Source: a virus
IMG/VR virus record: IMGVR_UViG_3300010299_002864
Coordinates: 1 to 23,970 of that record
Reading direction: 5' to 3' (one strand)
Length of the DNA: 23,970 nucleotides
Shown: positions 1 through 23,970 of the stretch, piece by piece
How the letters are laid out: each line of letters opens with the position of its first letter
How positions within the stretch are numbered: the first letter of the stretch is position 1
Notes under the pieces: generated by a model
Database searches by the model: none
The model's input: the letters and a program-made list of their open reading frames with translations, nothing else
Told to the model about the DNA's origin: nothing
Translations under genes and position numbers: made by a program

Positions 1-3000
1 ATCAAGAATAACAACACTACTTAAGTAAGTTGCAGCTGTAGGATCATTTACTAGAGAATTGACTCTTGCATCTGTTGCATAATTTGTAACCTTAGAGTTA
101 ATTCTATTTGCGATGGTGATAAGATTTACTCTATCCAAGTCAATAACTGGAGAAACTTTTTCATCATCAGTGCTCATTGTAAATTCCATTGTAAATGACT
201 TCTTGCCTGGGAAGTCCTGAAGATAAGTCTCTTCATTTATTTGAGAAGCAATAATTCTTGGAGAATCGAATTCGGTGTTATCATTTAATGAAATGTCCAC
301 AAAACCCTGATCTATAAATGAAGTTAAGTTAGAATCTGGTGAAGATCCGCTGAAGGTCCTCACCTTTGCAGAAATTGAAGTTTGTTGTGGCAACATTGTT
401 GCAATATTTGGTCTAATGACACTGAAAGGTATATTTTGGGTGGCTTTTGGTCCTTTTGGAGAACCAGTCAAAGGAACTGTGTCATATGATCCACAAGACT
501 TATTAGAGTTGAAATAGAGAGCTGGATATCCTGCACCATTTCCAGGAGTTCTATCAATTCCCCTACCACTAGTGGAACCCATGTCCACTTTTAGATAATA
601 GTAATCAAGATCTGCTGGATAGGTTACCAAATCGGTATCTGCAAAACTATGAGTTTTGTTTATTCTTCTTAAAGATACTCCATTTAATTCATATTTGAAT
701 ACCGAAGCTTCAAGTTCATAACTTCCAGAAACTGTGTTATCAATGTTTCTGGTTATTCCGGTCAAACTATTGGTTGATGTTACAATACCAGTATACTTTA
801 TTACTTCATTTTCAATCAAAATATATCCTGGGTTTACCGCAGAAACAGTAACATTCTCAAAACTTGTGAAAATTCCAACATTACTTACAACAATACTTTG
901 CGTAGATGTAGAATTATATGTTGACTTGAGAGTTTGTGGTTTTTGATCTGGTTCTATGCCAGTTAACGTAACTTTATCGACCAAAGAATACATTCCATGG
1001 TTGTTATGACTTACTTTAAAGTGTAGACCATCAGAAAGTGATGTTATAGTATTTACAGTTGCACCCGTGAGAAGTGAGGTTCCTCCAGTACCAACATAGA
1101 ACAGACTATCTGTACTATTTTGAGTTAGAGTTCCTTGAACTCTATCAACTAACAATGAGTTAAATGATGAAATGACACCAACATTATTTGGAATACTAAG
1201 AATTAAATTAGTACCAAGATTGTCAGTTTGGGCATAGTCAACTTCAAGAGCGTCTCCATATGCATAACCAGTACCACCGATAGAAACAGTTGCTGCGATT
1301 GCAACGCCATTATCAACACTTAAATTCACTTTAGCGCCAAAACCATTACCTGTTATGGAAACAACATCTACATTGGAATAAGTTTTAAATGCAGAGGTAA
1401 ATCCAATACCAGGACCTGTTACAGATAATGTACTTCCAATTCCAATAGCACCAACAACACTTCTCAGATTAGATCTGAATACAGAGTTGTTACTTTGGAA
1501 TACTGGACTTCCAGGAGTCAATCCACTAACTTCAGATGAACTTAGACTCTTAGCCAAACCAACGAGGACAGACTTAGAAATTGTATCTAATGGATTTGCT
1601 CTTAAAGTTACAATTTGATTATTACCAACATCCAATTTTGGATTATAGAATCTTACAGTTGAGGCTTCTGTGACAAAATTAGCTCTATAGAGAGTTAATT
1701 TCAAATCTTCCAACTGGCTAGGATCCCATGTTGCACCATTTTGTGATTTGAAAAGAGAACCTAGTAACGGTTGTTGAGACACAACTACTTTCTGGGATTC
1801 TGGTAGATCCAAAGTAGTTACATCTTCTTCACCCATTCTCGATACCCACACTTTATATTCATTTGATGCAGAAAGAAGGACTACACAATATGAATTTCCA
1901 GTTTCAAGATATACTGGAGATGGGAAAGTAAATGTTGTTGGAACCTTGCCGTCATCTGATAGTTTTACTTGACTTGGGTCTAAGATCACTTCACCAAATG
2001 GGATAATGGTTGTAGTTGGCAAACCAGTTTGCATTGTTCTGATTTGCATCGTGACAGGCAAATCATTAGTATCTTTTGCTTGGAAGAATACATCACACTT
2101 GGTTATGAATACACCGTTTTCATCTGGAACTTCAAAAGATTGTGCAAGTGGATCAACCCATCTTGTTTGAGTTACAGTACGATTTGAGAATGAAGTTCCG
2201 GCCTGAAGTGTTGTTTTCTTTGACGTTAGAGTTCTCTCTTCAGAGTGATTCAATCTTTCAACATTTGCATTTCTAGTTCTTAAAGTAACTTCTTCTGTGT
2301 TGTTTAATGTTCCAGAAGATGTAAACTTAGCATCAGCAGTACTATCCGTGGAACCAACAATAGTGCTGTTAGTTGAACTAGTTGTAAGAACAAATGTCTT
2401 AGTTCCGGTTTCAAAGGATGGAGTAGATTGTAGTTTGGAATCTGGGATAAAGAGAGATCCAATTAAAGTACCAGAAGAATCTGTAATAAGTCTCAGATCT
2501 TTTACTTTCGCAATTGCTTTAGAACTTTCTCCCTTAAGTTGCATATTCTTAACAATATGTCCGTAATAACCAGAAGCAGATTGCAATTCCAAAGCAGCAG
2601 TATCAACATTCAGTATGCTAGATGTTGTTGAATATGAAGACGGAATTGTTTGATTTGGTTTATATGGATTTTGTGTGTAAACCTGATCAGCATTATTATA
2701 TGGACCATACTTGTGGTTTGGTGAAGCCAATCTAAACCTAATAGAAGTTGTGCCAACAGTACCCGTGACAGTTTCCCCAACAACGAAAGTACCACTCTTC
2801 ATTTCAATTTCAATGAGTTTTGGAACGACATACTTAAGCATGTCAACGTCATCGAAAAATGCGTATAGTTGTGTTTTTGGTTTCAGTCTTCTTGCTATGA
2901 ATTCAATATTTCTAGATCTCATAACGTGAATAACTTCAGTCGATACCACAAATGTTCCCAGGTTTACAGTATCAAATCTTTCAGATACCTTATATTGAAT

Positions 3001-6000
3001 ACCCTGTCTAGCTTGTTTTGTGGTAGTTAAAGTAGTTACGTTTGTAAAATTAGTATACTGGTCTTGGAAAGTCGTTCTTGTTGTTTCAGGAACGCCTCTT
3101 CCTTTTTGGAAACTACCTCTACTGGTGCTTCTACCGATTACTCGTGAACCAACATGGATTCTTCCCATGTTTTGTCTGGCAACGACTTTTGTTCCAGTCC
3201 ATGTTGTTTCCCATGCACCCCAGTCAATAGGAGATAGTCCAGTATTGGTGTCAACTCCTAATTGTTGGATAGTAGTTTCATAGTTTCCTTCTTGATCTAC
3301 AGTTTTTTTAGTTCCTTTTGTTTCGATCCAAGTATCTGTAGCGGGATTAAGTTCAATCGCGCCAATCCAGTTTACAACAGCAAATGGGTTGACATTTTCA
3401 ATTCTAGTTGCAAAAGTATTCTTGAGGAATTCTACATGCGAATATTTCAAACAAACAATATCACCAACTTTAACAGTATTTGGATTACCCAAATCTTTAA
3501 CAAATCTCAAGTCTGCATCTGGATTTGAAGAATTAGAAGCACCAATAACAGCTTCTGATCCGAGAAGGAGATCTATAGAAGTAGTATAGTGTTGTGGTCT
3601 AAGTAAACCATCTGTGGTGTCAATACTGCACTTATGTTGTGGATCTCCAAGAGCTCCAGTCTGAACAGACTTAAAGTTATCTACTAAGAAACCACACTTG
3701 AATCTATCAAGTTGAGTTTGGGAATCTCTTACTTTCAAGTTCTTAGTATCTGTTTCTAAGAGAGACAATGAAGTATAGTATTCTACATTTCTCAGTCTAT
3801 CTTCCAGTCTCGCTATATCTTGCATTCTATAACGTTTATGTGGAGATAATTGTACAGTTACATCACCTACGTTATAAACATAGGGTCTCATAGTAATTGT
3901 AGCAACTTCTAGAGAATTTTCAACACCGGGTGGTTCAACTGGTTTTAAAGATGGAACACCTTTAGATACAAAAAATTCTCCATATCTGTTAAGGTATAAC
4001 TTATCCGTTCTTGCAAGATAGTAGTCATAGGATAAGAATAAATCCTTATCTTTAGCGAAGTTATATGGAGTTGAGTTTGTTGATGGTAGGAATTGTCTTG
4101 AATTGAATTCAAAAGGAGAATATGGAGTTACTGAACTATCATATGGAGTAACTCTAGGTCTAAGGTCAATAATATCACTTCCCCTAAAAGATCCAATTTG
4201 GGGGAGATCTGTTGAATATCTATCAGCATCATAAGAGTTGACGGTTACAAAATCTCCATCATCATTGGGATCAATATAATAATGGTTGTACACTACTTTC
4301 AATCTTCTTGAAGGTGCAGTTACTCCCGATTTTCTTCTTATAGATGAGAAATCTGCAATTTCTTCTGTCTGACCATTTTCGAAAATAAAGTCTCCAATTA
4401 TATTTCTGTCTCCTTCTATAAGAAGACTTATTTCTGCACTAATATTTGATTCATACAGAAGAATTTTTTCTCCTGCTTGGAAAGTATTTTCATTTGTATA
4501 TACGAATTCTATTTCATTAGTTCCATTAGTTGCAACGAACATTCCCATTGCATTACTTGTCTGACCATAAACAATCTCACCTTTGATTGCATTCAAAATG
4601 TTTGCATTCAAGTCAATGAGTTCTAATTTTGGTAGATCTGCATCATTTTCATCCGAGGATTCAAAAATTCCCGCAACAAAAACTACATCAGGAACATTCA
4701 AAGATATTTTTTCATCCTGAACTCTAGTTCCGTAATAAGGTCCATATGTTAGTCCATCGGAAAGGGTGGTGCTTCCAACTCCGGATGAATTTGAACTAGA
4801 ATTTACAATATTTAAAACAGAACATCTATTATAAATTTTCTTTCTAGGTTTTAATCTTCTCTTTTTAAGAGTAACAGTTAAAGTTGCAGGCCCATTCTGA
4901 CTCAAATTGGTCAGAGTTATAGTTCTCGCTGCACTAATAGTAACTTGGCCAGAAGTTAAAGTCTCAATAGTTCCATCATCAAAAACTAGGTTATAATCTT
5001 CTTCGTCAAATTGTTCTAGTGAAAGATTGGTATCACTTTCTAAAGTGGCAGTCAATCCATTTGAAGCAATTGTTACTGGATAAGATTTTCTAAAAACGAT
5101 TTCACCTTCAGATACATCCATATTGGCAATATTGGAATGTTCCAAATCCGCGAAGAAATATGCCTCTCTAGTGTTGACCAAAACAGAGATGCCTTTTACC
5201 AAATCACTAGTTTCCACTTCACTAGTTGGCAAACTACCAATAGAGACTCCAGCAACATTTGTAGTGGCTTGAAGTTTTATGGTTTTTCCAGCAGCATTTA
5301 CTTCGGTAACTCTATTATAAGTTGGTAAAGTTTCACCTTTTTTAGTATAGACAAAAATATCACCCGTATTAATTCCAACTCCGAAAGTAGAAACTGATGT
5401 AGTTACTGTACTTATACCACCAGAATTAGCCGAAATAGTGTACTCTGAGTTCTGCGGTCCAAGTGGAACTGCTTGGTTGATTATTGTATCAGAAGTAAAG
5501 GATGTAGTAGCTCCGACATACCCAACAACTTGTCGAACATCACCGAGAGTCCAATCTCTAATATTGGTAATAGTTCTAGAAACATCTTCACCATCAATCT
5601 GCAATTGTTCTCCGATAGTAAACTCACCAGAAGCTTGATAGAGTACTATTTGACTACTGTTGTTTACATCGGAAACCAAAAATCCAGATGCAGAACTATT
5701 CTTACCTTCAACATAAGCAGGTACAGTTAAAGATATTGATGTATTTAATTGCAAATAAGTATATGTTTGCAAGTCAAAAGCGGAGGCTTCAAAAATAGTC
5801 TCAGGACCTTGATATTCTGCATTTTTTAATTTCAGATCATATACCCTACCTATTCCAATGGGAATTCCAGCAGCAACACCAGGAGTTACAGTTCTTTCTG
5901 AATATAAAGTTACCTGACTACTGACACCATATCCAACGGGGAGTGTTCCATAGACATTATCAACTTCAACTTGATTTCCAAGACTAAATGGAACTGTTAT

Positions 6001-7167
6001 GTCCTTGACGCTTTCGGTTGTTCTTGGTTTCTCCAAATCTGCGTTTACAGTTATAAGAGTCTCTACTTCATATCCCCTCACATAAGCCTTTCCTGGAGAT
6101 ATTTGTAGTGCTAGTAGATCATCTGATGGAGTATTTCCTTGTTTTGTTAATTGACCTACGTTATAAACACCATTATTTCCAATCTTATTGTTTAAAGATT
6201 CTTTAGCAATTACACTGAATGGTTTTACATAGTAATCTCCAGACTCTTCGTTGGTTCTTCTGGCCAACTCATCTGTAATAAGTTTGGGAGCATCTTCTTT
6301 TTTTGGAACTTTTTTAATAATTCCATTTTCAATTCTAACCAACTCAACAAAATTCTCATCATTAAAGTCATCTAGTGATTTTTTAATGAGAGTGGCCGTA
6401 ATTCTTAATCTGTCTGCACCAGGAGCAGCAAAGTTTGAAAATCCTCTTGCATTATCAAATAAGTCTTGATTTGATTGAGATGGTACAGCAATGTCCTCGA
6501 AAATAGATAGGCCAACCCTATAGTTTGGGACATTGGTATATTGATCTAATATTACTGCCTGAGGAAAGACATCTACGAAAAATCCTCTTATAAAATATAC
6601 ACCTTCTTCAATTTTGATCGCAGATCCAGTAGCAACTGAACCTTCAATGATTGTAGTAGCAAATGAAGATTCAGTTCTAATAACACCTAAACCATAATCA
6701 ACATTATCCAAAACGATAAGATTTTCACCATCCACAAATGTACTTGTAGAAAAATCATCTTCACTTGAACTTTGATATTTTATGTATAGAGTATAATTAT
6801 CTCTTTCCGACTCATCGCTAGTGATATATCTTTCAACTTTGGCAAAAACTCCACTCGTCTCGCCTTTAATTCTCTTCCCTACCAAATATTCAATATATGT
6901 AGATACTGGAATTCCCAAGTGAGTTGGGTCAATCTGAACACATGTGTACTCAGAATCATAAGCAGTATTTCCTGGAATTACTACTTGACCCTCTTTGAAA
7001 AAGTGTTTGCCAAATTTTTCAACTTGATTTTGAAGAATTGACTGTAGTGTTGTCAGTTCTCTAGCTTGGATTGGAGTTCCTGGCTTAAATAAGACTCGTT
7101 GATAATTTCTAGTTACATCAAAATCGTCAAAATATGGGGATGTGTTTAGATTTGTATTTTGTGCCAT
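1..7167 (-). CDS. DUF4815-type virion structural protein, 3' end beyond window
   Basis: Partial gene: it begins with ATG at 7167 and reads open to base 1, giving at least 2389 residues with no stop. The start MAQNTNLNTSPYFDDFD, followed by VLFKPGTPIQARELTTLQS (residues 20-40), is the N-terminus I associate with DUF4815 phage structural proteins. Other landmarks are DIIDLRPRV (about 995), a charged helix with RMQDIARLEDRLRNVEYY (about 1110-1135), MRSRNIEFIARRLKPKTQLY (1416 on), and a conserved-looking block from WVDPLAQSF (1670) to SRMGEEDVT (about 1783). GGTGY-type hairpins lie near residue 2000. No signal peptide or membrane segment is seen. It starts six bases after the gp8 stop, so it is probably co-transcribed and made late. 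Position after gp8 suggests a baseplate periphery or fibre-attachment role, perhaps in the gp9/gp10 slot; that is inference. The block near the left edge (PGKKSFTMEFTMS, NYATDARVN) resembles the C-terminal part of relatives, so probably only a small part is missing. Family call is from memory of motifs. Confidence 0.82.
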   Translation of the reverse strand, partial: MAQNTNLNTSPYFDDFDVTRNYQRVLFKPGTPIQARELTTLQSILQNQVEKFGKHFFKEGQVVIPGNTAYDSEYTCVQIDPTHLGIPVSTYIEYLVGKRIKGETSGVFAKVERYITSDESERDNYTLYIKYQSSSEDDFSTSTFVDGENLIVLDNVDYGLGVIRTESSFATTIIEGSVATGSAIKIEEGVYFIRGFFVDVFPQAVILDQYTNVPNYRVGLSIFEDIAVPSQSNQDLFDNARGFSNFAAPGADRLRITATLIKKSLDDFNDENFVELVRIENGIIKKVPKKEDAPKLITDELARRTNEESGDYYVKPFSVIAKESLNNKIGNNGVYNVGQLTKQGNTPSDDLLALQISPGKAYVRGYEVETLITVNADLEKPRTTESVKDITVPFSLGNQVEVDNVYGTLPVGYGVSSQVTLYSERTVTPGVAAGIPIGIGRVYDLKLKNAEYQGPETIFEASAFDLQTYTYLQLNTSISLTVPAYVEGKNSSASGFLVSDVNNSSQIVLYQASGEFTIGEQLQIDGEDVSRTITNIRDWTLGDVRQVVGYVGATTSFTSDTIINQAVPLGPQNSEYTISANSGGISTVTTSVSTFGVGINTGDIFVYTKKGETLPTYNRVTEVNAAGKTIKLQATTNVAGVSIGSLPTSEVETSDLVKGISVLVNTREAYFFADLEHSNIANMDVSEGEIVFRKSYPVTIASNGLTATLESDTNLSLEQFDEEDYNLVFDDGTIETLTSGQVTISAARTITLTNLSQNGPATLTVTLKKRRLKPRKKIYNRCSVLNIVNSSSNSSGVGSTTLSDGLTYGPYYGTRVQDEKISLNVPDVVFVAGIFESSDENDADLPKLELIDLNANILNAIKGEIVYGQTSNAMGMFVATNGTNEIEFVYTNENTFQAGEKILLYESNISAEISLLIEGDRNIIGDFIFENGQTEEIADFSSIRRKSGVTAPSRRLKVVYNHYYIDPNDDGDFVTVNSYDADRYSTDLPQIGSFRGSDIIDLRPRVTPYDSSVTPYSPFEFNSRQFLPSTNSTPYNFAKDKDLFLSYDYYLARTDKLYLNRYGEFFVSKGVPSLKPVEPPGVENSLEVATITMRPYVYNVGDVTVQLSPHKRYRMQDIARLEDRLRNVEYYTSLSLLETDTKNLKVRDSQTQLDRFKCGFLVDNFKSVQTGALGDPQHKCSIDTTDGLLRPQHYTTSIDLLLGSEAVIGASNSSNPDADLRFVKDLGNPNTVKVGDIVCLKYSHVEFLKNTFATRIENVNPFAVVNWIGAIELNPATDTWIETKGTKKTVDQEGNYETTIQQLGVDTNTGLSPIDWGAWETTWTGTKVVARQNMGRIHVGSRVIGRSTSRGSFQKGRGVPETTRTTFQDQYTNFTNVTTLTTTKQARQGIQYKVSERFDTVNLGTFVVSTEVIHVMRSRNIEFIARRLKPKTQLYAFFDDVDMLKYVVPKLIEIEMKSGTFVVGETVTGTVGTTSIRFRLASPNHKYGPYNNADQVYTQNPYKPNQTIPSSYSTTSSILNVDTAALELQSASGYYGHIVKNMQLKGESSKAIAKVKDLRLITDSSGTLIGSLFIPDSKLQSTPSFETGTKTFVLTTSSTNSTIVGSTDSTADAKFTSSGTLNNTEEVTLRTRNANVERLNHSEERTLTSKKTTLQAGTSFSNRTVTQTRWVDPLAQSFEVPDENGVFITKCDVFFQAKDTNDLPVTMQIRTMQTGLPTTTIIPFGEVILDPSQVKLSDDGKVPTTFTFPSPVYLETGNSYCVVLLSASNEYKVWVSRMGEEDVTTLDLPESQKVVVSQQPLLGSLFKSQNGATWDPSQLEDLKLTLYRANFVTEASTVRFYNPKLDVGNNQIVTLRANPLDTISKSVLVGLAKSLSSSEVSGLTPGSPVFQSNNSVFRSNLRSVVGAIGIGSTLSVTGPGIGFTSAFKTYSNVDVVSITGNGFGAKVNLSVDNGVAIAATVSIGGTGYAYGDALEVDYAQTDNLGTNLILSIPNNVGVISSFNSLLVDRVQGTLTQNSTDSLFYVGTGGTSLLTGATVNTITSLSDGLHFKVSHNNHGMYSLVDKVTLTGIEPDQKPQTLKSTYNSTSTQSIVVSNVGIFTSFENVTVSAVNPGYILIENEVIKYTGIVTSTNSLTGITRNIDNTVSGSYELEASVFKYELNGVSLRRINKTHSFADTDLVTYPADLDYYYLKVDMGSTSGRGIDRTPGNGAGYPALYFNSNKSCGSYDTVPLTGSPKGPKATQNIPFSVIRPNIATMLPQQTSISAKVRTFSGSSPDSNLTSFIDQGFVDISLNDNTEFDSPRIIASQINEETYLQDFPGKKSFTMEFTMSTDDEKVSPVIDLDRVNLITIANRINSKVTNYATDARVNSLVNDPTAATYLSSVVILD

Positions 7168-7173
7168 TTTTAT

Positions 7174-8769
7174 TTAAAACTCCAATACAATTTTAATGTC
7201 TTCCTTTTGGTTGGCAGATCTCGGAATAGGTTGTCTATTATCCAAGTAAATAACATCCCCAGATTTTTTGTTATACTCAGCAGTAGAAATTCCAGATACG
7301 AAATCTTGACCTAACTGGTATATTCTATTATTTATTGTGGTAGTTACACCACTAAATCCAGAATTAATTTGCAAAGTTGGTCCAACAATAGATGAACAAT
7401 TGATGGTCAATCCATATCCAACGTCTGGAGTTGCAGTAAAAGGAATAATTTTAAATCCAGTTTCACTTGAAGCCAGTCCTGTTGGTTGATAGTACTTTAA
7501 TACTCCGGTTATTGGATCCCAGGATGCAACATATCCAATCGCAGTAGACCCCAAACCAACGGTTTGTTTGATAACCGAATCAACACCATAAGTTGTGTTT
7601 GTTGTAACACCGGCCAGTTTCAATGCATTTAATCCACTAACAACCGAAGCATCTAAAACTTGAACATCACTACCAACAATAGTAGGATTCTTCAATATTC
7701 CCACTCTAGCAAAATCATTACCTAAAATAATATCAGGATTGCTCTCCAAAGTTTCATATCTTGAATATAAGAGGACTCTGTATGCACCAAGTTCTCTATA
7801 AACGTCATATCCATGTCCACCTTTTGGTGGAATAATAACGTTAAATGATGATATGGACGTTGTACCAATTCCAGTATTACTCAACTGACTTAGTGGACCA
7901 TTAATTTCCGACCCTGGAGCTCCAGGATAGAATTGTATGGTTCCATAAGTATATCCTTTACCACCGTCCGTAACAAAAATTTCAGATACTTTACCAAAAG
8001 AATCGATCGTAATAGTAGCTTTTCCACCAGATCCATCTCCCAAAATTGGAACATTTGAAAAAGACGTAGAGATTGGCTGATAATTTGCACCTCTATTATT
8101 AACCAAAACGACTTCTATTTTCCCATCAACCGCATTATTTTTTGTTGCGATTGACTCTCCAGATTCCCCCCAACTATCTGGAACTGGAATGTACTCAATA
8201 GAGTCAAATTTTACAATCTCTGATGGTTTAATAGTATAAAGATATTTCCAAATATATCCGTCACCACTTGCACCCGCAGCTCTTGCCTCTAGATCAATAA
8301 ATGTAGGTTGGTCGAAAGATGGTCTTCCTTTAGGATTTTCTGGGTCAGTTCCATTCTGCAGACAAACATAAACTCTCAAGTCCTCGTTTATGACATAATA
8401 ATTTGCTTCATAAAGTCCAGTCTGAGAAGTAACTGGAGTTACATTAAAAACATTATAGTCATGTCTATACATTTCATAAGTATTTCCAGCCACCCAATTT
8501 ACCTTTCTAACCAGTCTCCGTACATCTTGATTTGTTATCTGTTTCAAAGATATAATACTTTCTTTAACTTGGTACTCTTCCCTAAATCCATCAACAGGAG
8601 ATGGAGTATTGGAAGACCAAGTTGGAGATCCACCAGCAGCCGAATCGTTGCTATTCGGAAGTCCGATGAAAGTATAATATTTGTTTGAAGTGTCACCTAC
8701 GCCAGAAACACTTTTGACAAAGTTTTCTGCATTCAGAATTCTGAATTGATCCGATATTATAGCGGGCAT
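7174..8769 (-). CDS. gp8: baseplate wedge subunit gp8
   Basis: T4-like gp8, which in T4 binds gp7 and gp10 as part of the wedge. Three stretches match T4 gp8 as I recall it. The N-terminal part has an aromatic YTFIGLPN strand, then PTWSSN (49-54) and RKVNW (88-92). The middle has VYVCLQNG (133-140), GDGYIWKYLYTIKP (169-182) and EYIPVP (192-197); T4 has GDGYVWEYLFEIPP and EYIVVP. The C-terminus GDVIYLDNRQPIPRSANQ (504-521), ending KEDIKIVLEF, parallels T4 GEMIYMENRPPI and EEINILFTF. Length is 531 residues against 334 in T4. The extra sequence seems to sit in two insertions: about 215-300, with GGKGY-type beta repeats, and about 370-490, with no recognised domain. The ATG at 8769 is the first in frame, 33 bases after the gp7-position stop, and no strong Shine-Dalgarno is present. 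An ACTAAATA box lies just upstream. Confidence 0.93.
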   Translation of the reverse strand: MPAIISDQFRILNAENFVKSVSGVGDTSNKYYTFIGLPNSNDSAAGGSPTWSSNTPSPVDGFREEYQVKESIISLKQITNQDVRRLVRKVNWVAGNTYEMYRHDYNVFNVTPVTSQTGLYEANYYVINEDLRVYVCLQNGTDPENPKGRPSFDQPTFIDLEARAAGASGDGYIWKYLYTIKPSEIVKFDSIEYIPVPDSWGESGESIATKNNAVDGKIEVVLVNNRGANYQPISTSFSNVPILGDGSGGKATITIDSFGKVSEIFVTDGGKGYTYGTIQFYPGAPGSEINGPLSQLSNTGIGTTSISSFNVIIPPKGGHGYDVYRELGAYRVLLYSRYETLESNPDIILGNDFARVGILKNPTIVGSDVQVLDASVVSGLNALKLAGVTTNTTYGVDSVIKQTVGLGSTAIGYVASWDPITGVLKYYQPTGLASSETGFKIIPFTATPDVGYGLTINCSSIVGPTLQINSGFSGVTTTINNRIYQLGQDFVSGISTAEYNKKSGDVIYLDNRQPIPRSANQKEDIKIVLEF

Positions 8770-8788
8770 TGTTAACTATACTTTTTTT

Positions 8789-8796
8789 TATTTAGT
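8789..8796 (-). promoter_or_regulatory. candidate T4-type late promoter box upstream of gp8
   Basis: The minus strand reads ACTAAATA in the 33-base gap between the gp7-position stop and the gp8 start. T4 late promoters consist of a TATAAATA box at about -10, recognised by the gp55 late sigma factor, and cyanophages use similar boxes. Placing the box at -13 to -6 puts the transcription start near 8783 and leaves a leader of about 14 bases before the gp8 ATG. An A8 run follows the box. The gap is AT-rich, so a chance match is possible. Confidence 0.45.
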
Positions 8797-8802
8797 CACC
8801 TT

Positions 8803-11800
8803 TTATTGACTAACTACAGTTCTTGTTCTTAAAACTTTTGGAGATGTAGATAATCCGGTAATTCCATTGTCAATGAATACATCAAATGTTTGTGGATCGC
8901 CCAAGATTCTATTTTGATAATCATAGATCTTTGCCCAACTATATCTTCCATAGAATCCACCAGTATTAACTCCAGTATCATTTTCACCTCTAGGCCAGAC
9001 CTGTACATAATTATCAATCATAGGAGCAAAATTACATGTTACCGTAACAATGCCGATCGAAGGTGTCGTAACATCTTCTACTCTATAAACTCCATCTAAG
9101 AACTGTGTAGCAACCCCGACAACGGAATCTGGATAACTTGACATTCCCCCAAGAAGTGTTGAAATTCCAATCAGATTTCCACCAGTTTCAACGTTACTAT
9201 CTGTAATGACAAAATAATCACCCTTGGATAATTGACTATTCGTAACTCCTAAAACATTGAGTGATGAATATCCAATACCTAGAGTACTATTATCATATTG
9301 TTCAGATTTCAAGGTAAAGGAAATTTTTGGAGAAGTTGTTCCAATTCCAGGTGTTCCACTAATGTAAGTTTGAATACCAATAATAATTCCAAAATCACCA
9401 ACTACTTTAAAAGATTTTACAGTTTCAGTCTTATAAGTATCAAGTTCAACTATAGCTGGAGGTGGATTATTTGGATCATAACCAAAACCAGGATTATCAA
9501 CTTCTATAGAAGTAACAACTCCATTGGTTACTGATGAGATTGCAGTGGCTCTATTGAGAACTGGTTCTGCATACATTGCTGTAGCACCGACTCCAACAAT
9601 AACATACCTGCCATCAGAACCGAGACTATCTTCAAACACAAAGTCATTTATATAATTGGATTGGTTTGTAGATCTATAAATCCAATCAGACAGATCAAAT
9701 GAATAGTATACATCACCATTGGAAACAGTAGCGACGTAGAATCCATAACTGTAATAAACATTGGTAATATCAAGAGTTCCCAAATTATTTGCAATAATTT
9801 CATATGTATCTCTTGTGAGATTACGTAAAACCTTTCCATTATTACCAACAGCCACAAATCTTCCATCAGCATAGATTACTTTATTCAAGTTAGTGGAAAC
9901 TGGGGAAGATGCATTTTCCCAAATTGCACCATTGTTAGAAGTTCTAATAACTCCATCCGCGCCGACTGCGACAAAATATTCTGCACCAAATGCAACACTG
10001 TTGAGATCAGAAAGAGTAGATGAGAATCTATTGATAAATGCGTCGGTGGTTACTCCAGTAGCAACAAATATGGATCCTGCAGCTCCAACAGCTACCCAAC
10101 TATCAGTAACGCTGGAATATACAATTTGATTAAATGTTCCAGTATATCCACTGCCCACTTGATTAATAACACCAAACCCAGGAAGAGCAACATCTTCCTT
10201 CAAAGGAATTTGTTCCCAAACTGAAGTGGAGGTATTATAGTCTGTTGCTTTTACAATTTTACCGAGACTACCAACAGAAACTAATAAATTACTTGTACCA
10301 ATACCAACAGACTCAATAGAATTGAAATCTATACTCTGAGTTTGGCCAAAACCAACTGTGCCGATTTGCCAATCTATTCCATCATAACTTGTTGCATAAA
10401 CAGCATTGGCTCCAACAGCAACAAATCTATCATTGAATTTCAAAGAATTTAAAGAATATGTTGTGGTCAAACCAGTAGAACCCTTCCAATTGAAAATTGG
10501 ATCTTTTTGATTGATAGATGACTCGGAAATAATAACTTTTGGAGATAACGTATTTGCATATCCAACTCCACCATTTGTAATATTAATAGTAGAAACTGTG
10601 GATGAAGTGGCAACTACGGTCTCAGTAAGACACTGTTCAACTGTTTTATTCTCTAAAATTAAAATGTCTCTAATATCTTCAGAAAGTTTATCAATATCCG
10701 TAAACAGTGGGTATGCATTATCAACATAGATTGATGTGTCATCTGGTAGAATCTTTTTAATTACTGTAGCAAAAGGTTTAACGCCACTCTGCAAACTTGG
10801 TCTAGACTTAGAATAAAGTGTTCCACTGATAACAGTGTCACTAAGTTGTTTCTTCCATGTCAGTGGTCTTACTCTTGTTGGATCGGTAATAATACCAACA
10901 GAATAATAATTGAAAGTTTCTAATTGATCCGAAGTAACAATCTTTTTAACAACTCTATCAAATTGTGAAATATCATAAGGATCTAGTGGATTTTCCTGAA
11001 TAACAATATTATCACCTGGTTTAATTGTTTTTGGTGGATCGATCAATTCAACGTCAACTGAAGATCCTCTATAGTAAAGGATAACACACTTTGATCCAGC
11101 TTTTGGAGCCTCAGTAAAAGTTATTCTACTTCCAGAGAACGAATATGATGTACCGGGAACTTGTAACACATCATTAATATAGATGAAGATGTTATTAGTT
11201 ATATCTAAGTCAGTTCCATCTGGAACTTTAAGTCCTATAACAGTTCTTACTCCATTAAGTGTGGTTGCAAGTGTAAACTTTTTCCTAAATCCATTAAAGA
11301 ATGTAGAAATATCATCAAACTGTATAAACTGACCTGGATAGAAACCAGCAAATGTATCAGTTTGTACCTCTTCAACTGTCAAAATGAAAGGTTCATATTG
11401 TTTGAATGTTACTATTCCGCCTTGAGTATAATAGTGCGGTATTGTTGAAATAGAACCAGCTAAAACAGTAAACTCATTGGTAGATCCAATAGAAACTACT
11501 CTAAAGTCCCTAGCTCCATCAGTACTATCATCAGTATATCTTAAAACTCTTTGAACCGTTGGAACTTTCTTGGTATGTCCACCACCAGTGTAGTAGTGTA
11601 CGATAGTAGATATTCCAGCAAGAAACTCAAACTCTGTTGCACTATTAACTGCAGTAACAGTGAAAGTGTAACCATATTCCGAAGTACCATCTGGGAAAAT
11701 TGTTGTAGTTAGACCCACGTATTGTGAATCGCAAGTAAACGCAAGTCCAGCTAAAGTTACTTTATCTCCAACTGCAAACTCATGATTTGTAGATGTTGTC

Positions 11801-14800
11801 ACAGTTGATAGTCCAGTGACCTCATAGTAAGAGAATGTAGTAATTCCAATCTCAGACCATCCTTCAAATATATGTGGAATTGTAGAAACTCCAGCATTCA
11901 TAGTGAAAGTAGTAGAACTTATAGAAGTTAGAACTGGGAATACTCTTCCATAAGAAGATGTGCCATCTGGGAAGATTGTTGTTGTAACACCTGCATGTTC
12001 TGCAGCACAAGAGAAAGGTAAGTTGAATAGGAATACTTCATCACTAGTTTGATTTGCAGGTACATCATCTCGTAATAATCCATGAGGAGAATAAGTAACA
12101 ACTGTACAAATTCCACTAGCCTCATCATAAGAGAAGGTTTGAATACCGACTTCATCATAACCACAAGTAAATGCTATACCAGTGAGAGTTACAAGATCAT
12201 CTTCACTAAGATTGTGAACAGAATCTGTAGTAATGGTAGTGAGTCCGGTTGTGTTATTATATAAAACGTTAGAAATATTTAAAGAATCATATCTAATTGA
12301 GGTATTCGTGTATATTCCCACTGGAGTAAGTTTATCTCCAAGTTTGTATCCAAGACCTGGGCGATCAAATTTAAAGTTTATGACACTGGATCCCATACCG
12401 ATCTGAACAGAAAGTCTTGCATCCTGACCAACACCAGACGATCCATCAGCATAATCAAGTGATAGAGCGCTATATCCAGTAGGCAAACCAATTGCTGCGA
12501 CTGGTAGGGAAGTTGTTGTGTATCCACTTCCCGCATTTACAACAGTATATCCCGTGATTGTTCCACCAGCACCGACAGTAGCGGTAATACTAGCACCAGT
12601 TCCAATAGTAGATGCAATACTTACTACTGGAGCACTTCTATAACCAGAACCGCCCCCAGTAACAACAACATCACTGATTGTTCCAGCAGCAGAAACAACT
12701 ACAGTAGCCGCGGCACCAATTAATGGTATGTAACCAAAACTGGTGGAAATAGAGACTTTCGATATTCTTCCAGCGTTTGGAGTACCACTTAAGAACCTCA
12801 GAACATTTGTTCCACTACCATCTACAGTATAATCAACAGATGGGTTTTGGAAAACATTGTTTATTAGAACTATTGGATTGTTACTAATTTCTGTAGAATT
12901 ATTAACATCATTGAAAACTGTATTTGTTGTTTGATTATTAGATTTTAAAGTAAATTCTGTTGCTGCAATACCAGTAAATGACAATGATATGTCATCGAAT
13001 AGAATATTCTTATCCTCTGGAGTACCGGCATCAAATCTTCTACTAAAAGCTCTGCCACCAAATATAGATCCAGTTTCCAATCCAACAGGACCTATTTGAC
13101 CATATGGAGCAGTATCAAAATAAATTATATCTCCAATAATATTGAAACTACCGTTTAATACTGTAGCCGCCGCGCCAATAGTATGTGCAGCTGCAACTGT
13201 TCCAAAGTAACCTCTCTCAACTTCCACATGATTTTCTGAAGAAACTCCAATTTTTTTAATTGAAACAAGTTCATTATCAAGATTAATGATATCACGAACA
13301 TTTAATGAAGAAATTCCAGAAGCAATACTCAATATGTCTGTGGAGGCCGTAGAAACACTTGATGCAAGAACAACTTCAAGAGATTTTCTCGATAGTGGTT
13401 TTTGGATTACACCATCAATTGTTATCATTACGCTAGCATTTGGATCCTTATATTCCAAAGAATGTGTTGCTGTTCCAACTCCAGTTAAATTCAAAAATAC
13501 ACTAGTTGATAATCCAGAAAGTTTAAATTGATTATCATTTAGTTTAAATACAAAAAGGTTGGCTGGTAAAGAATCTGTACCAAGTTCAAGTGGTCTAAAG
13601 GATAAATCATCATTAGAACCAGATCCACCAATATAAGTACCAGCAATTGAGATTACTGAATTGGAATCATATCCAGATCCACCATTTAAAACATCGACCG
13701 AAGCAATTTCCCCATCATTATTTCTAAACACATTGAAAGTGGCTCCAGTTGCATCCGAAGAAGGAACTTCAGAATAACTTTGATTAGCTTCTGCATCCAG
13801 TACTGTTGGACCTGTTGCAGAAACCACAAAACTCAAATCATTTGTTGGAGTTGTTCCTCCCATGTATGTACCTGCGATAGATACAGTTTCTCCAATCGAA
13901 TATCCACTTCCACCCTTAATTAGAGTTATCGATGTTGAAAGTGGTTGTCCAGTAGATACACTATATGTGATTGTAACGTTAAATTCCGCACCAGTTCCAG
14001 TTGTTCCATTACCAACAGTTTGAACATATTGTTTAAAAGATGGTCCAACAGGAGACAATACTGTGGACACACCAGTTATAGAAGTTGTTAAAGCGCCTGC
14101 ATATCCATTTTCTAATACTGACGTTCCATCAAAATCATAAACATTCAACAGACTATCAACAGGTCCAGAAACGTATGAAGTGGTTGCAATTCCAATAGGA
14201 CTTCCATTTGAATAAGAGTAAATCAACTCTTGACCTGACTGGAAATTGTGGTTGGGAATAGTGAACGTATCAGTTGTGACATCAATACTAGAACTAGTAA
14301 ATTCATGTTTGAATAAAGAAATTCCTTTATTTTTTAACTTAAAGGTTGTTAATCCAACAACTGCACCACCCCTTGTCAATGATGGGAATGTTAAATCTGG
14401 TGCAAAATTTGTACCCAATCCAATAATTGTAGTTATAATTCCGACATAGTTGCCAAGAGATGATCTAACATCTGCACAATCTGCAGTTCCGTAGAATTCT
14501 GTTGGGATTCCGGCAAGACTACTATTTCCTATAGCAACTGTTAAAATTCCAACCAAAGTATCAATGTTGGTTTGGACATCTGCACAAGAAGATGGATCTG
14601 TGTTAAATCCTGTCAGTGGATCAGCTGTAATTGTGAGATCCTTGGAATACAACTGATTTGTAACAGCATCTTTCATGTATCCTCTTGAACTTTCAAAAAC
14701 ATAAATCGATTCAGATTCTTCACCAAGAAGTCCATTCGTCAAAGCAACACCAACACCATCAAAGTACTTTTTAGTATTGTATATTGTATGTTGATTAGTT

Positions 14801-17800
14801 CCATATGATAAGTCTTGAGCTACGCCATCAATAATATATCCCAAATCACGGAAACACTTATTACCCCCTGTCGTATAAGTACCCACATTAAGGACTGGCA
14901 GCGTTGCCGTGGACCCCAGAGAAATGATTGAGGTAATGACACCCACCAGACTTACAATGTTAAATTGAACGTCACTACAGGCGTTAGAATCGGTGTTAGA
15001 GACTGTTGTTCCTACACCATAAGTAGGAGGACCATCAGTAACGGTCAAATCTTGAATAGAAAGTCCATTTCTGACTGCACTTCTCATCAAATCCCTGGAC
15101 TGAACAAATCCATAGAGAGATTCGGACTGACCACCAGTTAAACTACCAGGAATGATGATGTCATTATTGAAATACGAAGCAGTAAACTCTCTGGAATAAG
15201 CATTACCGCCTGTGAATATATCAACGGAAACTGCATCAATAAATTTACCCAAATCCGATTTATATTGGGAAGTTACAGTAGAAAGTCCAGGATAAACTGA
15301 AAGACTGTTAGAATAAGAAGTATCAATAATTTCTTGTCTGTTTACCTGAATCAGTCGGTAACCATCATAATACCTGGATCTTTCATTAGTCTGATTATCT
15401 CCAGGGAAGTAAAAATCTGGGAACCCAATAGCAACAGATGCGAGAGATCTATCCTGAATTTCTCTCTTATTAGCTAGAATGAGATCTCTAGAGTCTTTAT
15501 ATCTATTAACGTTATTATTAAGAGGATCTGGAGTTACAGTAAAATTAAACTGTTGTTGTACAGATGATTGATATAAGGTTGGTGGAGTCTGATTATTGAT
15601 TACATATTGTCCAATAAACTTGACATAGTTGTATGCAAATAAAGTTTCTTCAGTTTCATTCGTAACATATGAAGAACCAGCATCCCAATATGCCAAACCA
15701 GCCTCAACAGACTTATTGTTTGAATTATACTTAAGATCGTGTGAAACAGCATCAACTATAAAACCAGTATCTCTGAGACACTTTTCTTTGCTGTAAGTTG
15801 TACTTAGTCCAATATTTGGATAGTTAAATTCAACAAAAGCAACTACCTCTTCTTTAATAAATTCTCTATTTAAATCTAATAAATCTGAAGCGTCTGCATA
15901 TCTACCTCTCAGATATTGTTCGGAAGTTCCATTAAATTGATCGGAAATATCATCAATGTTTAGAACCTTGTTAGTTCTGTTCATTATGTAAGCTTCTAGA
16001 TCAACTCCCTCATCAAAATAAACATTTTGTGTTGAACCATTTTCCAACAATTCTTCTTCATAAACTCTAGCAAAGTTCTTCCTAACACTCATAGAAATAA
16101 CTTCATCAACATTTAAGAAAGTGAACGAATCTGAAACCGCAAGTTTTGGTTTCATGTTCACAGATCTAGCAATTCCAACATTAACTTCATTTTGAGTTGG
16201 GCTAGTAACAATCTCCAGATCAGAAAACTCTTTAAATCCTGATGGGTGTACAATTGATCTTACAGATTCCCTCCACTTATCATATGGAACACCACCTTTA
16301 ATGGAATATGAGAACTTTTGATAATAGAAGTTATCTGATATTCTTTGAGAATATTCATTTAAAATACCAGAAGAGAGGTCCACCGAAGCAGTCTTATCTC
16401 TAGAAACACCGAGGGTTGCAAATAAGTTAAATTTATCAAAGTATTCTACAGTACCAGTAATCTTAGATGTTTCTCCATAAATTTTATCACCTACTGTTAT
16501 ATCTCCAGAAACATTCTTCAATCTCATTTGGTTGAGTCTACCGTCCCAACCCCTCTCCATAATTCTACCAGAAAATCTTGGTGACGTAACAACCTCATTT
16601 GATGCATAATTTACATCATCCTTTAAGATCATCTCAAAAACAGGCATGTCATTCTTATTGATCACTGTGCCCAAATTAAATTCATCACTATAGTCACCAA
16701 AAGTACCGGTAGATATGCCAGTCATATCATAAGTGACTGTATTATTAATAGAACTTATTCCAGTAACTGTAAAAAACGCATAGTCATATGAAGAAGAATT
16801 GAAATTAGCACGACCAAGAGCTCTTGTCTCATCTGTAAGTCTGCAATTTTCAACAAATATCTCGTCACCGACATTAAAGGGATATACGAAGTCGGTGCTG
16901 CCAAATCCTGTTGGTATAAATGGTGTCAGACCTGCAACGTTTGATAATTCCAGAGTTATCGAATTACCTACGACACTTATATTATCAATTTCATATCCAT
17001 TTGAATTGAATATTGTTATTACTTCAAGAGGTTTGGCTATTGAAGTAGAATTTTTATTAATAGTTACATTGGTTACAGATCCACCAGAAATAACTGCACC
17101 GAGTTCAATATCAAGATCATTATTTTTTACAAGCAATTTCGGTGGACTATTATATCTTCTGCCACCTGTTGTTATTCCAATGTAATCTATAGTTCTTATG
17201 TCTTTAACTCCAAGAACAGTAGGAACACTCAAAGATGGTGAAAGTGTTGGGTCAGTTGGATAATCAAATCCATCCTTCACTCTTGTGAAAGTTTCAACTC
17301 TACCAATATTTGGAGATATGAGTTTTACAACTGCGTTTGTTCCTCTTTCACTTTTAACTTCCCTAACTCTAGGAACTTTATTAAATCCTCTTCCTGGGAA
17401 GTTGATTTTTAATTTAGATATAGGTCCTAATGCACTGTGTGATGTAGTTTTATATGAGAAAGTTGTTAAATTTTGAGTTAGAATTTGATTTTCAATGAAT
17501 GTTGGTTTTTTATCACTAAAGAATGTAAAAGATTTATCGGAAACACTAGTAAGTTTGAATCTAGAGTTAAGTCTATGATTTACTATACTAATTTTATTAT
17601 GCGATAAAACGTCAATATCTGTTGATATTTGATTCTTACTCTGTTCTGAAGTTCCCTTAGTGAATAATCCATAATAAATTGGGAAGAATTGAGAAGAAAG
17701 ATCTAAAATAATCTTAGCTCCAGGATCTCCTGGAATACCTTCTCTTTCTACAAAGAAACCAGTTCTTTCATTAATTTTTTCGACAAAATTTACATCAAAA

Positions 17801-20800
17801 TAGAATTGCAAATCAAGACTACTAAGACTTGAATCTGATACATCAAATTCTATCTTTGTAGTTCTTATACAGGTAATCTGTGGATTTACGAAGTGTAATT
17901 TTTGATCAACTCCACCAATAGAAGTGAAATTAATGAAATTTGAATCTTCTATATCACTTCTGTATTTGCATAATTTTATAGTATTTGGATCGGTTCTTAG
18001 AACATAATATGTTGAATAATTTTCAAGTCCATTAATAGGATATGCAGATATATAAAGTACCTTATCACCAGTTACTATATTGCCAGTATATGAAGAAACA
18101 TCAATAGAACTATCAGATAAAGAAACATCAGAGTCTGAGAAAGCAACTTCTCTCATCAAAACTTTTCTGTTTACTGGATCAAAGAAAACTTTTACAACTT
18201 CGTTATAATCAGTGCTGACATTAAACAGAATTTCATCCCCAACTTGAAGATTATGGTTGGAAGTTGTGGTTACTATTCCCGAAGATTTTTCTAAGGTTGC
18301 AGTGATCTTTGGATTAATCGTTGTTAATGAATGAGCTGCACCAATTACTCCCGAAAAATCTTCTTGGTCCCAGAATTCCACAGAGTTATTGTTAGTTCCT
18401 ATACCATTAGTTGATGAAGTTGTAAATCCAACAGTTGATAATCCAATAAAATCCCTACCTAGGTTTACAGCGTAAACCGTTTGATCATCTTCCAGTTGAA
18501 TGGATTGTGCAACACCTACATTATTGACATATAGAGATGTCCCAGCAAAACCAGATCCAGAATTATATTTTAATGGTTGTCCTGTATAGAATTTATGACC
18601 GGGTAAATATATACTTCTTGGTGGTATAAGTTTCATTTCGGTAGTACTATTCCCAAAACCGACAACTGTTCTAAATGATCCAGTGCTACCAATACCTACA
18701 TCACTCTTTGGATCGAAGAACGTGGTATAGTTTTTAATAACATAATCCGTTACATTTCCGGTGGGGATAGAAAATTCTCTTGGCAAGAGATTCACATTGC
18801 CACCAGATATGGTATGAATTCCTGTATTTTCGAGTCTATTTACATGGAATCCAGATCTCTGGAAATCTATTTTGGTAATTAACAGTTTTTCTGTTCCAAT
18901 TCCAATAAAATCATTAACCTGGAAACCATTAACGTCCTTTACTTTGATGAAAGTAAATTTAGTAGTTGTAGCTTCGTCAGCAATATCTTCTGACAGTTCA
19001 ACTTCCTTATTTTTGACCTCTACAATCTGAACTCCTTCAAAAGCAGATGAAGTAATAGTAGAAATTCCAGTGATTGTTATTGGTTGTCCGTTATCGATTC
19101 CATGGGGACCAGACGTTCTTATAACAGTATTTGGAGTTCTTATATTAAATTCAGCGTTCTGTATTTTCTCCTGAACGACTGTAAAAGCGTCCACTTCTCT
19201 ACCGTCCAACTCACTTACAACAATATTTGGTTGAACACCGCCAGAACCCGTTATATCAACGTCTACGGGATCATTTACTTTGTAGTTATCTCCACTGGAG
19301 AATATAGACACATCTTCAATTTTACCAGAGTTTATAGCTGTTACAGAAAACTCCTGTTTATACTCTTCTAGAACTGTTTCGATTAAATCATAAGATGAAC
19401 TGGATCTGTTAAGATAATATGGTCCAATATTTCTGGTTAACGTCGTATCAAAAACATTAAAGTCTTGATTGAATCCTGGTAAGAAGTTTTCTTCTACTGG
19501 TTTGTTGTAGAAATATGGGCCAACAACATATGGATATTTTGGAGTAGATTCATTTGATGCACTAACATCTATCGTTGAAAAATATGCATATACTCCATTA
19601 GGGTACTCCGGAGTTATTGCAAATCTGCCATTATGAATGTCTAGGTCACCAGAACCATCATACTTATAATCATTAACAAAGAATCCCCCCTCAAAAGAAG
19701 GTGGTCTCTTACCACTAGTGGTATCAACATCTAAAACATACCCAGGATTCATCCTTCTTATAAATCCACCAGTTGTTGTATTATATGCATATGGTCCATA
19801 AATTGGATTACCATCGTAAGCATAACCCAAGATAGGAGAATGATTTAGTGTTCCAGTATTTTCTTTATTATTTTCGGTAAAGTTGTCAGATAATTGATAT
19901 CTTAAGTTCTTAGGAACATAAAAAGAAATAAACTGTAGTCCCAAATCGGTATTTTTACTGGAATATAGTATTCCATCATCATCTTTATTAATGACATCTT
20001 TACTTTTAAATATCTGGTTTATCTTCCATTCAGTTACATTGGCCAAGAACTTGGCATTTTGTCCCCTATTTTTTAACGTTAATGTGGTATTTGATGATGC
20101 ATATCCAACTCCACCAAAAACAATATTAACAGCTTGAATAGATCCATCTGATATAATTGGTTCTAATTGTGCAAAATTTCCAACTCCATCTACCAATATT
20201 TGGCAATTTTTTCTAAATCCTTTACCCCTGTTAATAATCTGAACATCTACAATTGACCCTTCAATAATAATTGGTTTTAAAATAGCATTAGAAGTTATAC
20301 TGGAAACACCAACATCCGGTCTTCTATGAAAATTAACAATATTAGTACAACCAAATCCAATTCCACCATCTTCAATATAAACATCATCAATAGATCCCAA
20401 CACAATAGGAATTAATTCAGAATTAATTATTGTGGTAGCTCCAGTTCCAGACTTTGATTCTACTTTTATTTCAATAGGTGGATATCCAAAAATATGAGTT
20501 CCTACTCCTAAAGATTCAAATTTGACAAATTTATTTTTATCATAATTTTCAGAACTTAATTGAGTACTAACTCCAGCATTATAAAGTCTAAATCTATTAT
20601 TATCTACTACCTTTACTTGATAGTATGAAGATGTCGATAATCCACTTATAGGAGTATCGGATGATTGATAAATTACATATTCTTCATTGGAGAATCCATG
20701 ATTTCTGGCATAAACATAAGAATCAAAAGTATTAATGCCAGAAACGTTATTTGCAGAAAGAAGTGAAGGAACTTTCACCTTTCTATTGGAATAACCTCTT

Positions 20801-23512: not shown

Positions 23513-23970
23513 TTATCTCGTATACTTTCCGTTTAGGTAGCTAGATGTAGTTACATAATTTGTTGCAGAAGAATTTTCGCCAGAACTGACAACATCTTCT
23601 ACAATATTTACCACAGTATTTTGAACGTCCAATTGCAGATACAGATCCTGCAGTCCGATGATATCGTTCGATTCTGGTATTGCTTGGACCTCAACAAATC
23701 CATTGGTTAAAGAAGCAGATGTTATATTAACAACATCTAATCTTATTTCACCTCTAATATAATCAACAGTTCCTGCAATATTTTTCACATTTACAGGTAA
23801 ATTATTCACCAATTTAAAGAAGAAAATCGTACCTGTTTTTTTATCCGTAGAAGATGGTCTATCCGCCATATAAAGAGTTTCATTTACACCATCAATTGTA
23901 AATCCAGTAGATTTTATTGAATATCCAGAATCTCTAATATGTATTTGATTTCCAAAACAGAGTTCATAGG
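23513..23970 (-). CDS. gp6: baseplate wedge subunit gp6, C-terminal part only
   Basis: The 3' end of a gene that enters from the right edge. The frame is open from 23970 and ends with TAA at 23513-23515, giving 152 complete codons. A methionine at 23869 lies inside the frame, but 33 further open codons precede it, beginning YELCFGNQIHIRDSGYSIKS, so it is not the real start. The visible part is beta-rich, with GTIFFFKLVNN and GTVDYIRGEIRLDVVNI, and then a low-complexity tail ending SSYLNGKYTR. Position directly before the gp7-position and gp8 genes is that of T4 gene 6, whose product dimerises and ties neighbouring wedges together. The pattern G-x-V-D-Y-x-x-G-E-I fits my memory of the C-terminal part of T4-like gp6, but most of the protein lies outside the window, so the call depends largely on synteny. 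Confidence 0.72.
   Translation of the reverse strand, partial: YELCFGNQIHIRDSGYSIKSTGFTIDGVNETLYMADRPSSTDKKTGTIFFFKLVNNLPVNVKNIAGTVDYIRGEIRLDVVNITSASLTNGFVEVQAIPESNDIIGLQDLYLQLDVQNTVVNIVEDVVSSGENSSATNYVTTSSYLNGKYTR
23516..23520 (-). promoter_or_regulatory. possible ribosome binding site of the giant gene, inside the gp6 3' end
   Basis: The minus strand reads CGAGATAAAATG across the junction. The GAG core lies five bases before the ATG at 23511 and overlaps the last codons of the gp6-like gene; the gp6 stop TAA is separated from the ATG by one A. This layout suggests translational coupling. The match to the Shine-Dalgarno consensus is short. A GGAAAG further upstream is the other candidate. 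Confidence 0.35.

Follow-up and report, generated by a model that had tools for sequence, protein, structure and literature searches.

Phage baseplates are already known to carry beta-propellers, and two cases are described in the available text of PMC4901313. The first, PhiKZ gp131C (PDB 4GBF), has seven blades and is found at the outer edge of the baseplate of a myophage, where a role in receptor binding is suspected for it but unproven, and the second is gp45, the receptor-binding protein (RBP) of Staphylococcus phage phi11, with a five-bladed propeller platform on the baseplate that is closed by an N-terminal strand (PMC4901313). Among cellular propellers, Ycf48 has a conserved arginine patch that, according to the available text of PMC9145668, binds membrane proteins. 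T4-like cyanophages possess very large baseplate proteins with extra domains, and the propeller described below is one such domain with exact borders. To our knowledge, the virion parts that touch the picocyanobacterial surface are largely unknown. For S-SM1, the available text of PMC3037559 gives a virion of 41 proteins.

The locus and its giant gp7-like protein

The window, i.e., the whole 23,970-base stretch of an IMG/VR virus record that was analysed, is a fragment of a T4-like (Kyanoviridae-type) phage with all of its genes on the minus strand. It contains the C-terminal part of gp6 (23513..23968; phrog_219, baseplate wedge subunit), a giant, 4902-aa gp7-like baseplate wedge protein (8803..23511), the baseplate wedge subunit gp8 (7174..8769; Pfam Phage-Gp8, 43.8 bits; phrog_438), and a DUF4815 structural protein that is cut by the window edge (1..7167; PF16075, 179.5 bits; phrog_358) and is gp10-like from its position alone. 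The phrog_2885 profile (“baseplate wedge subunit”) matches residues 5-2530 of the 4902-aa protein (E=0, 2261.6 bits), and the Pfam Baseplate_wedge model scores 19.1 bits against a cut-off of 27. The ORF occupies the place annotated as gp7, “baseplate wedge initiator”, in Kyanoviridae records, and the window’s gp6-gp7-gp8 order is also found in S-SSM7, S-CAM9, DSL-LC03, and S-8S55. As judged from sequence, similarity and position both place the protein in the T4 gp7/cyanophage wedge initiator family. A preliminary description of the locus had assigned the propeller to a baseplate protein, and the phrog_2885 match, together with the gene order gp25-gp6-gp7-gp8 in named relatives, bears this out. 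The window’s gp8 is 75-80% identical to gp8 of the Synechococcus phages S-SCSM2R, Sf-FS3, and S-SSM7, and a picocyanobacterium is the natural guess for the host.

Positions 4517-11976 of the window are 99.8% identical, across 7460 bases, to IMG/VR contig 3300010297_000232. Within gp7, a YHYH domain (Pfam PF14240, 76.4 bits) occupies residues 1218-1318 (19558-19860, minus strand). Both gp7 and gp8 (7174-23511) contain recurring GxGY hairpin repeats, which are probably the reason why each of them matches phrog_460, head closure; annotation by way of such repeat-driven matches is unsafe. Finally, two consecutive ORFs are labelled gp7 or wedge initiator in S-SSM7, DSL-LC02, and B23, with a small structural gene separating the two in S-SSM7, and the giant gp7 seems to be split in some phages.

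A seven-bladed propeller near the gp7 C-terminus

Positions 9561-10503 (minus strand), reported in the preliminary description as a seven-bladed propeller, encode residues 4337-4651 of the ORF at 8803-23511. The insertion borders derived from propeller-less relatives, near residues 4330 and 4651, are almost the same, and the insert is delimited here as residues 4336-4651 (9559..10506, minus strand). An AlphaFold2 model, computed from a 36-row alignment of 424 residues that included the flanks, has a mean pLDDT of 90.4 and a pTM of 0.85 and contains seven sets of four strands (A-B-C-D). A Foldseek search of the PDB returned Ycf48 chains first (E 1e-10, TM 0.74 on target, 18% identity), and among the 50 matches listed by VIA-align, WD40-type propellers, presumably also seven-bladed, are near-tied at Z 27.7-29.1, the superposition at Z about 29 having an rmsd of 2.6-3 over about 280-297 aligned residues. 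The best viral model is that of S-SSM7 gp7 (BFVD E3SL21_2; E 1.8e-38, 36% identity, TM 0.90 on query); PDB sequences gave no match to the propeller profile at E<=0.01. The model and its matches to solved seven-bladed propellers confirm, at the level of structure prediction, that residues ~4336-4651 of gp7 form the closed seven-bladed beta-propeller that had been proposed.

The seven VAVG-type strand repeats noted at the outset are recovered as the B strands of the blades (FVAVG, LLVSVG, WVAVG, FVAVG, FVAVG, FYVATV, and YVIVG), six of which end in VG, with blade 6 (FYVATV) being degenerate. That the blades are repeats of one another is likewise supported, as each of the seven blade profiles finds another blade as its best non-self match, ahead of all 214 windows taken elsewhere in gp7 and of all 1000 shuffled sequences; many single blade pairs do not stand out, and blade 6 is the weakest. 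By the model and the blade profiles, blade 1 spans residues 4353-4387 (10351..10455), blade 2 residues 4395-4441 (10189..10329), blade 3 residues 4459-4497 (10021..10137), blade 4 residues 4502-4539 (9895..10008), blade 5 residues 4541-4578 (9778..9891), blade 6 residues 4581-4618 (9658..9771), and strands A-C of blade 7 residues 4620-4653 (9553..9654), all on the minus strand. The outer (D) strand of blade 7 would be supplied by the N-terminus of the insert, KDPIFNWKG (10480..10506, minus strand), which resembles the W-bearing D strands of the other blades and whose KDPI and W are invariant across the 36 alignment rows. Strand order and this resemblance suggest that the KDPIxxW strand pairs into blade 7, closing the ring in “velcro” fashion. 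Since the first and last strands of the insert would both lie in blade 7, the chain would enter and leave at one point, and gp7 can carry the ring as a side domain while itself remaining undisturbed.

The three clear Asp-box turns previously described are present in a short form, S-x-[DN]-[GL]-x-x-W, at residues 4375 (SYDGIDW, blade 1), 4525 (SNNGAIW, blade 4), and 4604 (SFDLSDW, blade 6). No others occur anywhere in the 4902-aa protein. Each lacks one residue relative to the canonical Asp box, and one 8-mer has the canonical spacing with N in place of D. Such turns recall BNR/sialidase propellers and would suit a baseplate-borne enzyme of the sialidase type that cleaves glycans. Four relatives weakly match an NCBIfam glycosylhydrolase model (best E 0.0024). 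Sialidase propellers have six blades, however, as opposed to the seven found here, and no Pfam or NCBIfam enzyme family matches the window’s propeller; we regard an enzyme of this type as very improbable.

Filled and empty insertion sites

The propeller sits cleanly between two GxGY hairpin repeats in the C-terminal region of gp7. Repeat 1 (about residues 4295-4329; 10525..10629, minus strand), with modelled strands at 4295-4300 and 4306-4313 and a matching repeat in propeller-less gp7, forms the upstream edge of the site, and repeat 2 (about residues 4654-4690; 9442..9552, minus strand), likewise placed from the model and propeller-less gp7, forms the downstream edge. Further out are a conserved upstream domain (residues 4152-4271; 10699..11058, minus strand), found in 44 named phage records, and the C-terminal domain of gp7 as defined by alignment (residues 4695-4902; 8806..9429, minus strand). 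A tblastn search with the region after the propeller (8806-9513) matched 34 named phage records.

A scan with the upstream domain, which is blind to the propeller, recovered 71 IMG/VR loci, 64 with the propeller and 7 without it (here and below, many IMG/VR loci are near-copies, and the counts are not independent events). Upstream-domain probes from P-SSM2, S-SM2, and S-B05, representing three other cyanophage clades, supplied the best 80 of 196, 567, and 183 loci, respectively, and the propeller-only model matched none of these 240. Closed frames are present in 232 of them, and in every one of these the stretch between the upstream domain and the stop codon measures 260-399 aa, against 631 aa in the window and in its near-copy. 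Both flank pieces were recognised in order in 153 of the 240, with the first mostly ending at profile positions 48-49, the second mostly starting at 367-371, and a linker of mostly 3-19 residues (commonest 7) between them. On this alignment evidence, the 153 loci with ordered, adjoining flanks are empty sites. With the whole flanked model, 31 of the 240 gave matches that extend over more than 150 positions of the profile, and the rows inspected (e.g., L399) were gapped alignments with few residues.

All loci in which the upstream domain reaches 54% likeness to that of the window have retained the propeller, including one (L541) with a stop inside it. In the latter (also L029; contig IMGVR_UViG_3300049043_000117), the stop falls within the propeller of the gp7 frame, where sequencing error, truncation, and domain loss are indistinguishable.

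Among named phages, the propeller model matches 7 of the 22 gp7 C-terminal regions read, i.e., those of Sf-FS3, S-SSM7, and S-SCSM2R (E 6e-95 or better), S-8S55 (E about 1e-30), DSL-LC02 (E 3.5e-15), DSL-LC03, and S-CAM9. The other 15 gave no match; by eye, the two hairpin repeats follow each other directly in several of them, whereas the repeats, like the propeller, are missing from S-SRM01, S-SKS1, and AG-345-D19. AG-345-O18 comes next in gp8 identity, but its record does not reach far enough upstream of gp8 for the site to be judged. Finally, tblastn with the propeller matched 17 named phage records, in 13 of which the match lies inside a gp7-type protein and in four of which it lies in other proteins (Limnohabitans DC31, S-CBWM1 twice, and Actinomycetia DSL-LC01).

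Inheritance and selection

In a maximum-likelihood tree of gp8 with 33 rows, 15 propeller rows are separated from 18 others on one branch (support 98/97; 97% of bootstrap trees). With a root that is not fixed, and with one propeller locus (L087) left out for its partial gp8, the tree fits one gain or one loss of the propeller. Within the clade, propeller and gp8 identities are correlated (Spearman rho 0.86; 595 pairs, 35 rows), and the domain is therefore inherited vertically within the clade and not swapped. The earlier suggestion of capture from a cellular gene is partly in keeping with these results: one acquisition within a single phage clade would agree with it, but the event is old and the searches revealed no close source among cellular genes.

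Identity is lower in the propeller than in the C-terminal domain at 81 of 82 loci, by a mean of 14.7 points, and lower than in the upstream domain at 80, the 82 being those of 87 loci in which all four segments had at least 70% coverage. In 10 of 10 loci, dN/dS is 0.05-0.22 for the propeller and 0.015-0.047 for gp8; the C-terminal domain exceeds the propeller in three (L040, L043, and L045), as does the upstream domain in L040. By these estimates the propeller is under purifying selection that is looser than that on gp8. Diversifying selection was considered and not seen, dN/dS being below 1 throughout the 10 loci. Mean column entropy is 1.73 bits for the AB loops, 1.55 for CD, 1.44 for DA, and 1.41 for BC, and 1.02-1.40 for the strands; the loops are only modestly more variable than the strands, and no hypervariable face stands out.

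Since none of the 240 gp7 loci from three other clades has the propeller, a baseplate works without it, and it might be a neutral passenger, i.e., a tolerated insertion with no important role. A dN/dS well below 1 in all 10 loci argues against this, as does its retention wherever the upstream domain reaches the 54% similarity given above (L541 with its stop), and we give such a passenger only a slight chance.

Vertical inheritance with gp8 and presence throughout one clade would also suit a fixed part of the virion, such as a protein-binding platform that keeps a tail fibre, or a further wedge protein of this clade, in place and never touches the host. WD40-like propellers are typical protein platforms, and they superpose on the present domain at Z about 29. 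There is also a cyanophage precedent in A-1(L), where the long tail fibre is anchored by an insertion domain of the wedge (available text of PMC10966104). On the other side, the propeller diverges faster than its gp7 neighbours and far faster than gp8, and a docking partner would therefore need to co-vary. We consider virion-internal docking possible, though on balance doubtful.

Ycf48 and cellular relatives

The preliminary description had called the propeller Ycf48-like. For the fold this stands, with Ycf48 as the first Foldseek PDB match, but it does not extend to the sequence, where the profile probability is 22% as against 99% for another group, and WD40 propellers superpose equally well. 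If the propeller were a captured photosystem II assembly factor, it might interfere with, or make use of, photosystem II during infection. Several results favour such an origin besides the Ycf48 chains that are the best solved Foldseek matches (E 1e-10): among 36 alignment members, 15 match PSII_BNR at E<=0.01 and 11 match the NCBIfam Ycf48 model at E<=0.1 (best 1.5e-7); two relatives, L116 (28.3 bits) and DSL-LC03 (31.0 bits), pass the PSII_BNR cut-off of 27 bits; and a phmmer search of the PDB with L116 matched Ycf48 alone (E 2e-4). The PSII_BNR matches fall in differing blade registers, with 25-93 of L116 aligned to profile positions 230-301 and 183-297 of DSL-LC03 to positions 8-122. The window’s own propeller matched neither PSII_BNR (Pfam, up to E 10) nor the NCBIfam Ycf48 model.

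In a profile comparison, “AVG-repeat” proteins reached a probability of 99% (E 1e-17), compared with 22% (E 1e-3) for the alignment of Ycf48, with a bias in that the AVG-repeat proteins had been chosen because the phage profile found them. The phage profile itself scores 4-28 bits on 26 of 26 Ycf48 frames and 102 and 119 bits on the AVG-repeat proteins L168 and L169, respectively. With the profile comparison favouring AVG-repeat proteins over Ycf48, the photosystem II link is unsupported, and, where a Ycf48-lineage member would be a free protein, the propeller is embedded in gp7, a baseplate protein of the virion. Capture of Ycf48 is thus strongly disfavoured and has, in our estimation, very little probability; after the Pfam, NCBIfam, phmmer, Foldseek, and profile comparisons, a Ycf48 origin was kept as a resemblance of fold alone.

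In cyanobacterial genomes, the phage profile matched in 3 of 292 for the phylum and 4 of 151 for the family, two sets that overlap (G275 is in both). A blastp search with a Ycf48 fragment found just five Ycf48 controls and none of the frames matched by the phage profile. The cellular matches are repeat proteins of the pattern FVAVGxxGxIxTSxDGxxW, and in two of them (L168 and L175) IPT/TIG-like domains can be seen by eye before the propeller, which suggests that the nearest cellular profile matches are exported surface proteins. By the profile scores, the propeller appears nearer to these bacterial exported AVG-repeat proteins (L168, L169), for which no family name was found, than to Ycf48.

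The DSL-LC01 propeller (positions 7959-8831 of locus L035) is free-standing, lies near collagen-like genes, and is annotated “photosynthesis system II assembly factor” in a phage whose listed host is an actinomycete; the label was probably transferred by family resemblance. Labels of this kind on phage propellers should not be read as photosynthesis genes.

A second module near the hairpin array

The gp7 genes of RN05-S and S-B05 are 99.5% identical over 2900 bases and later again 94-99% identical, and between these stretches RN05-S has 934 bases that are 90.7% identical to a Syn33 gene lying between gp9 and gp8. Recombination brought this module, together with diverged hairpin repeats, into gp7 of one of the two phages. 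In RN05-S gp7 it lies at about 2908-3840, with counterparts in Syn33 and in IMG/VR stretches L419-L498; in L419 it stands, by eye, directly before a YHYH-like stretch. The module comprises ~290 aa with the motif EHVFHTLHMHG and is found in 85 named phage records and 133 IMG/VR stretches. Its contexts are visibly different in the 10 loci whose flanks were inspected, identity between contexts is high, and it has the appearance of a module of virion proteins that was mobile until recently. Sequence searches of Pfam, PHROG, and the PDB gave no meaningful match, and a genome scan gave 10 pattern stretches and no relative; its AF2 model is poor (pLDDT 62; best Foldseek E 4.3) and permits no inference of fold. 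The possibility that the RN05-S insert occupies the same slot as the propeller was rejected, as in the alignment this insert precedes the propeller site by about 40 residues and coincides with the beginning of hairpin repeat 1.

In RN05-S, S-B43, and RB11-B, the ~290-aa module lies at the start of the hairpin array and was acquired by recombination. The RN05-S insert supports the view that the gp7 hairpin array tolerates grafts, which does not in itself show the propeller’s route of arrival. A more speculative idea, and in our opinion a rather unlikely one, is that the array is a general grafting platform for self-contained binding modules, with the propeller in one clade and the ~290-aa module in these three phages. 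If this were true, modules grafted at the hairpin array would set how the phage grips its host.

Proposed role of the propeller

The propeller probably binds something, be it at the surface of the host or on the phage particle. Our proposal, in which confidence and doubt are about evenly balanced, is that the baseplate displays it as a binding module without enzymatic activity, which aids host adsorption, and a receptor-recognition head is plausible. As the model and the empty-site comparison show, the propeller is inserted between two hairpin repeats near the gp7 C-terminus. It would have been gained once in one phage clade and then passed on with the baseplate genes, in agreement with the gp8 tree if suitably rooted. 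It would be exposed on gp7 and would have the same copy number. In the T4 baseplate, gp7 is present in six copies. The propeller surface would then help the phage to adsorb to the envelope of its host, either while the baseplate opens or before it does so.

Baseplate-propeller precedents for host adsorption are the phi11 RBP and PhiKZ gp131C (available text of PMC4901313). Several points weigh against it: the fast divergence of the propeller may reflect no more than weaker constraint; the C-terminal domain has the higher dN/dS in 3 of 10 loci; no face stands out, although one hypervariable face might be expected of a head that binds a receptor; the propeller is not swapped within its clade, unlike many receptor-binding tips; and the gp7 proteins of three other clades manage without it. 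Nevertheless, host adsorption appears likelier than fibre docking. With the site filled in one clade and empty in others, an adsorption role is open to a clean deletion or binding experiment.

Comparison with known systems

PhiKZ gp131C resembles the gp7 propeller, by description, in having seven blades in a myophage baseplate, but its propeller is the C-terminal domain of another protein, unlike the gp7 insert. It is absent among the 50 Foldseek and 50 VIA matches listed, which does not exclude likeness. The phi11 gp45 propeller is also borne on a baseplate and closed by an N-terminal strand, but it has five blades and belongs to a trimeric RBP of a siphophage with a Gram-positive host. Ycf48/PSII_BNR (2xbg, 5ojr) is likewise seven-bladed with Asp-box-type turns, although it is a free photosystem II assembly factor and remote by profile. 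The AVG-repeat proteins (L168, L169) have FVAVGxxGxIxTSxDGxxW blades in common with the propeller but are cellular, with regular repeats, in some cases after IPT/TIG-like domains. The titles and abstract beginnings found name no propeller in a cyanophage gp7, which is weak evidence of novelty, with the subscription literature mostly outside their scope. Finally, S-SSM7 gp7, annotated as separate ORFs and with no mention of a propeller in its annotation, has the same domain in the same place.
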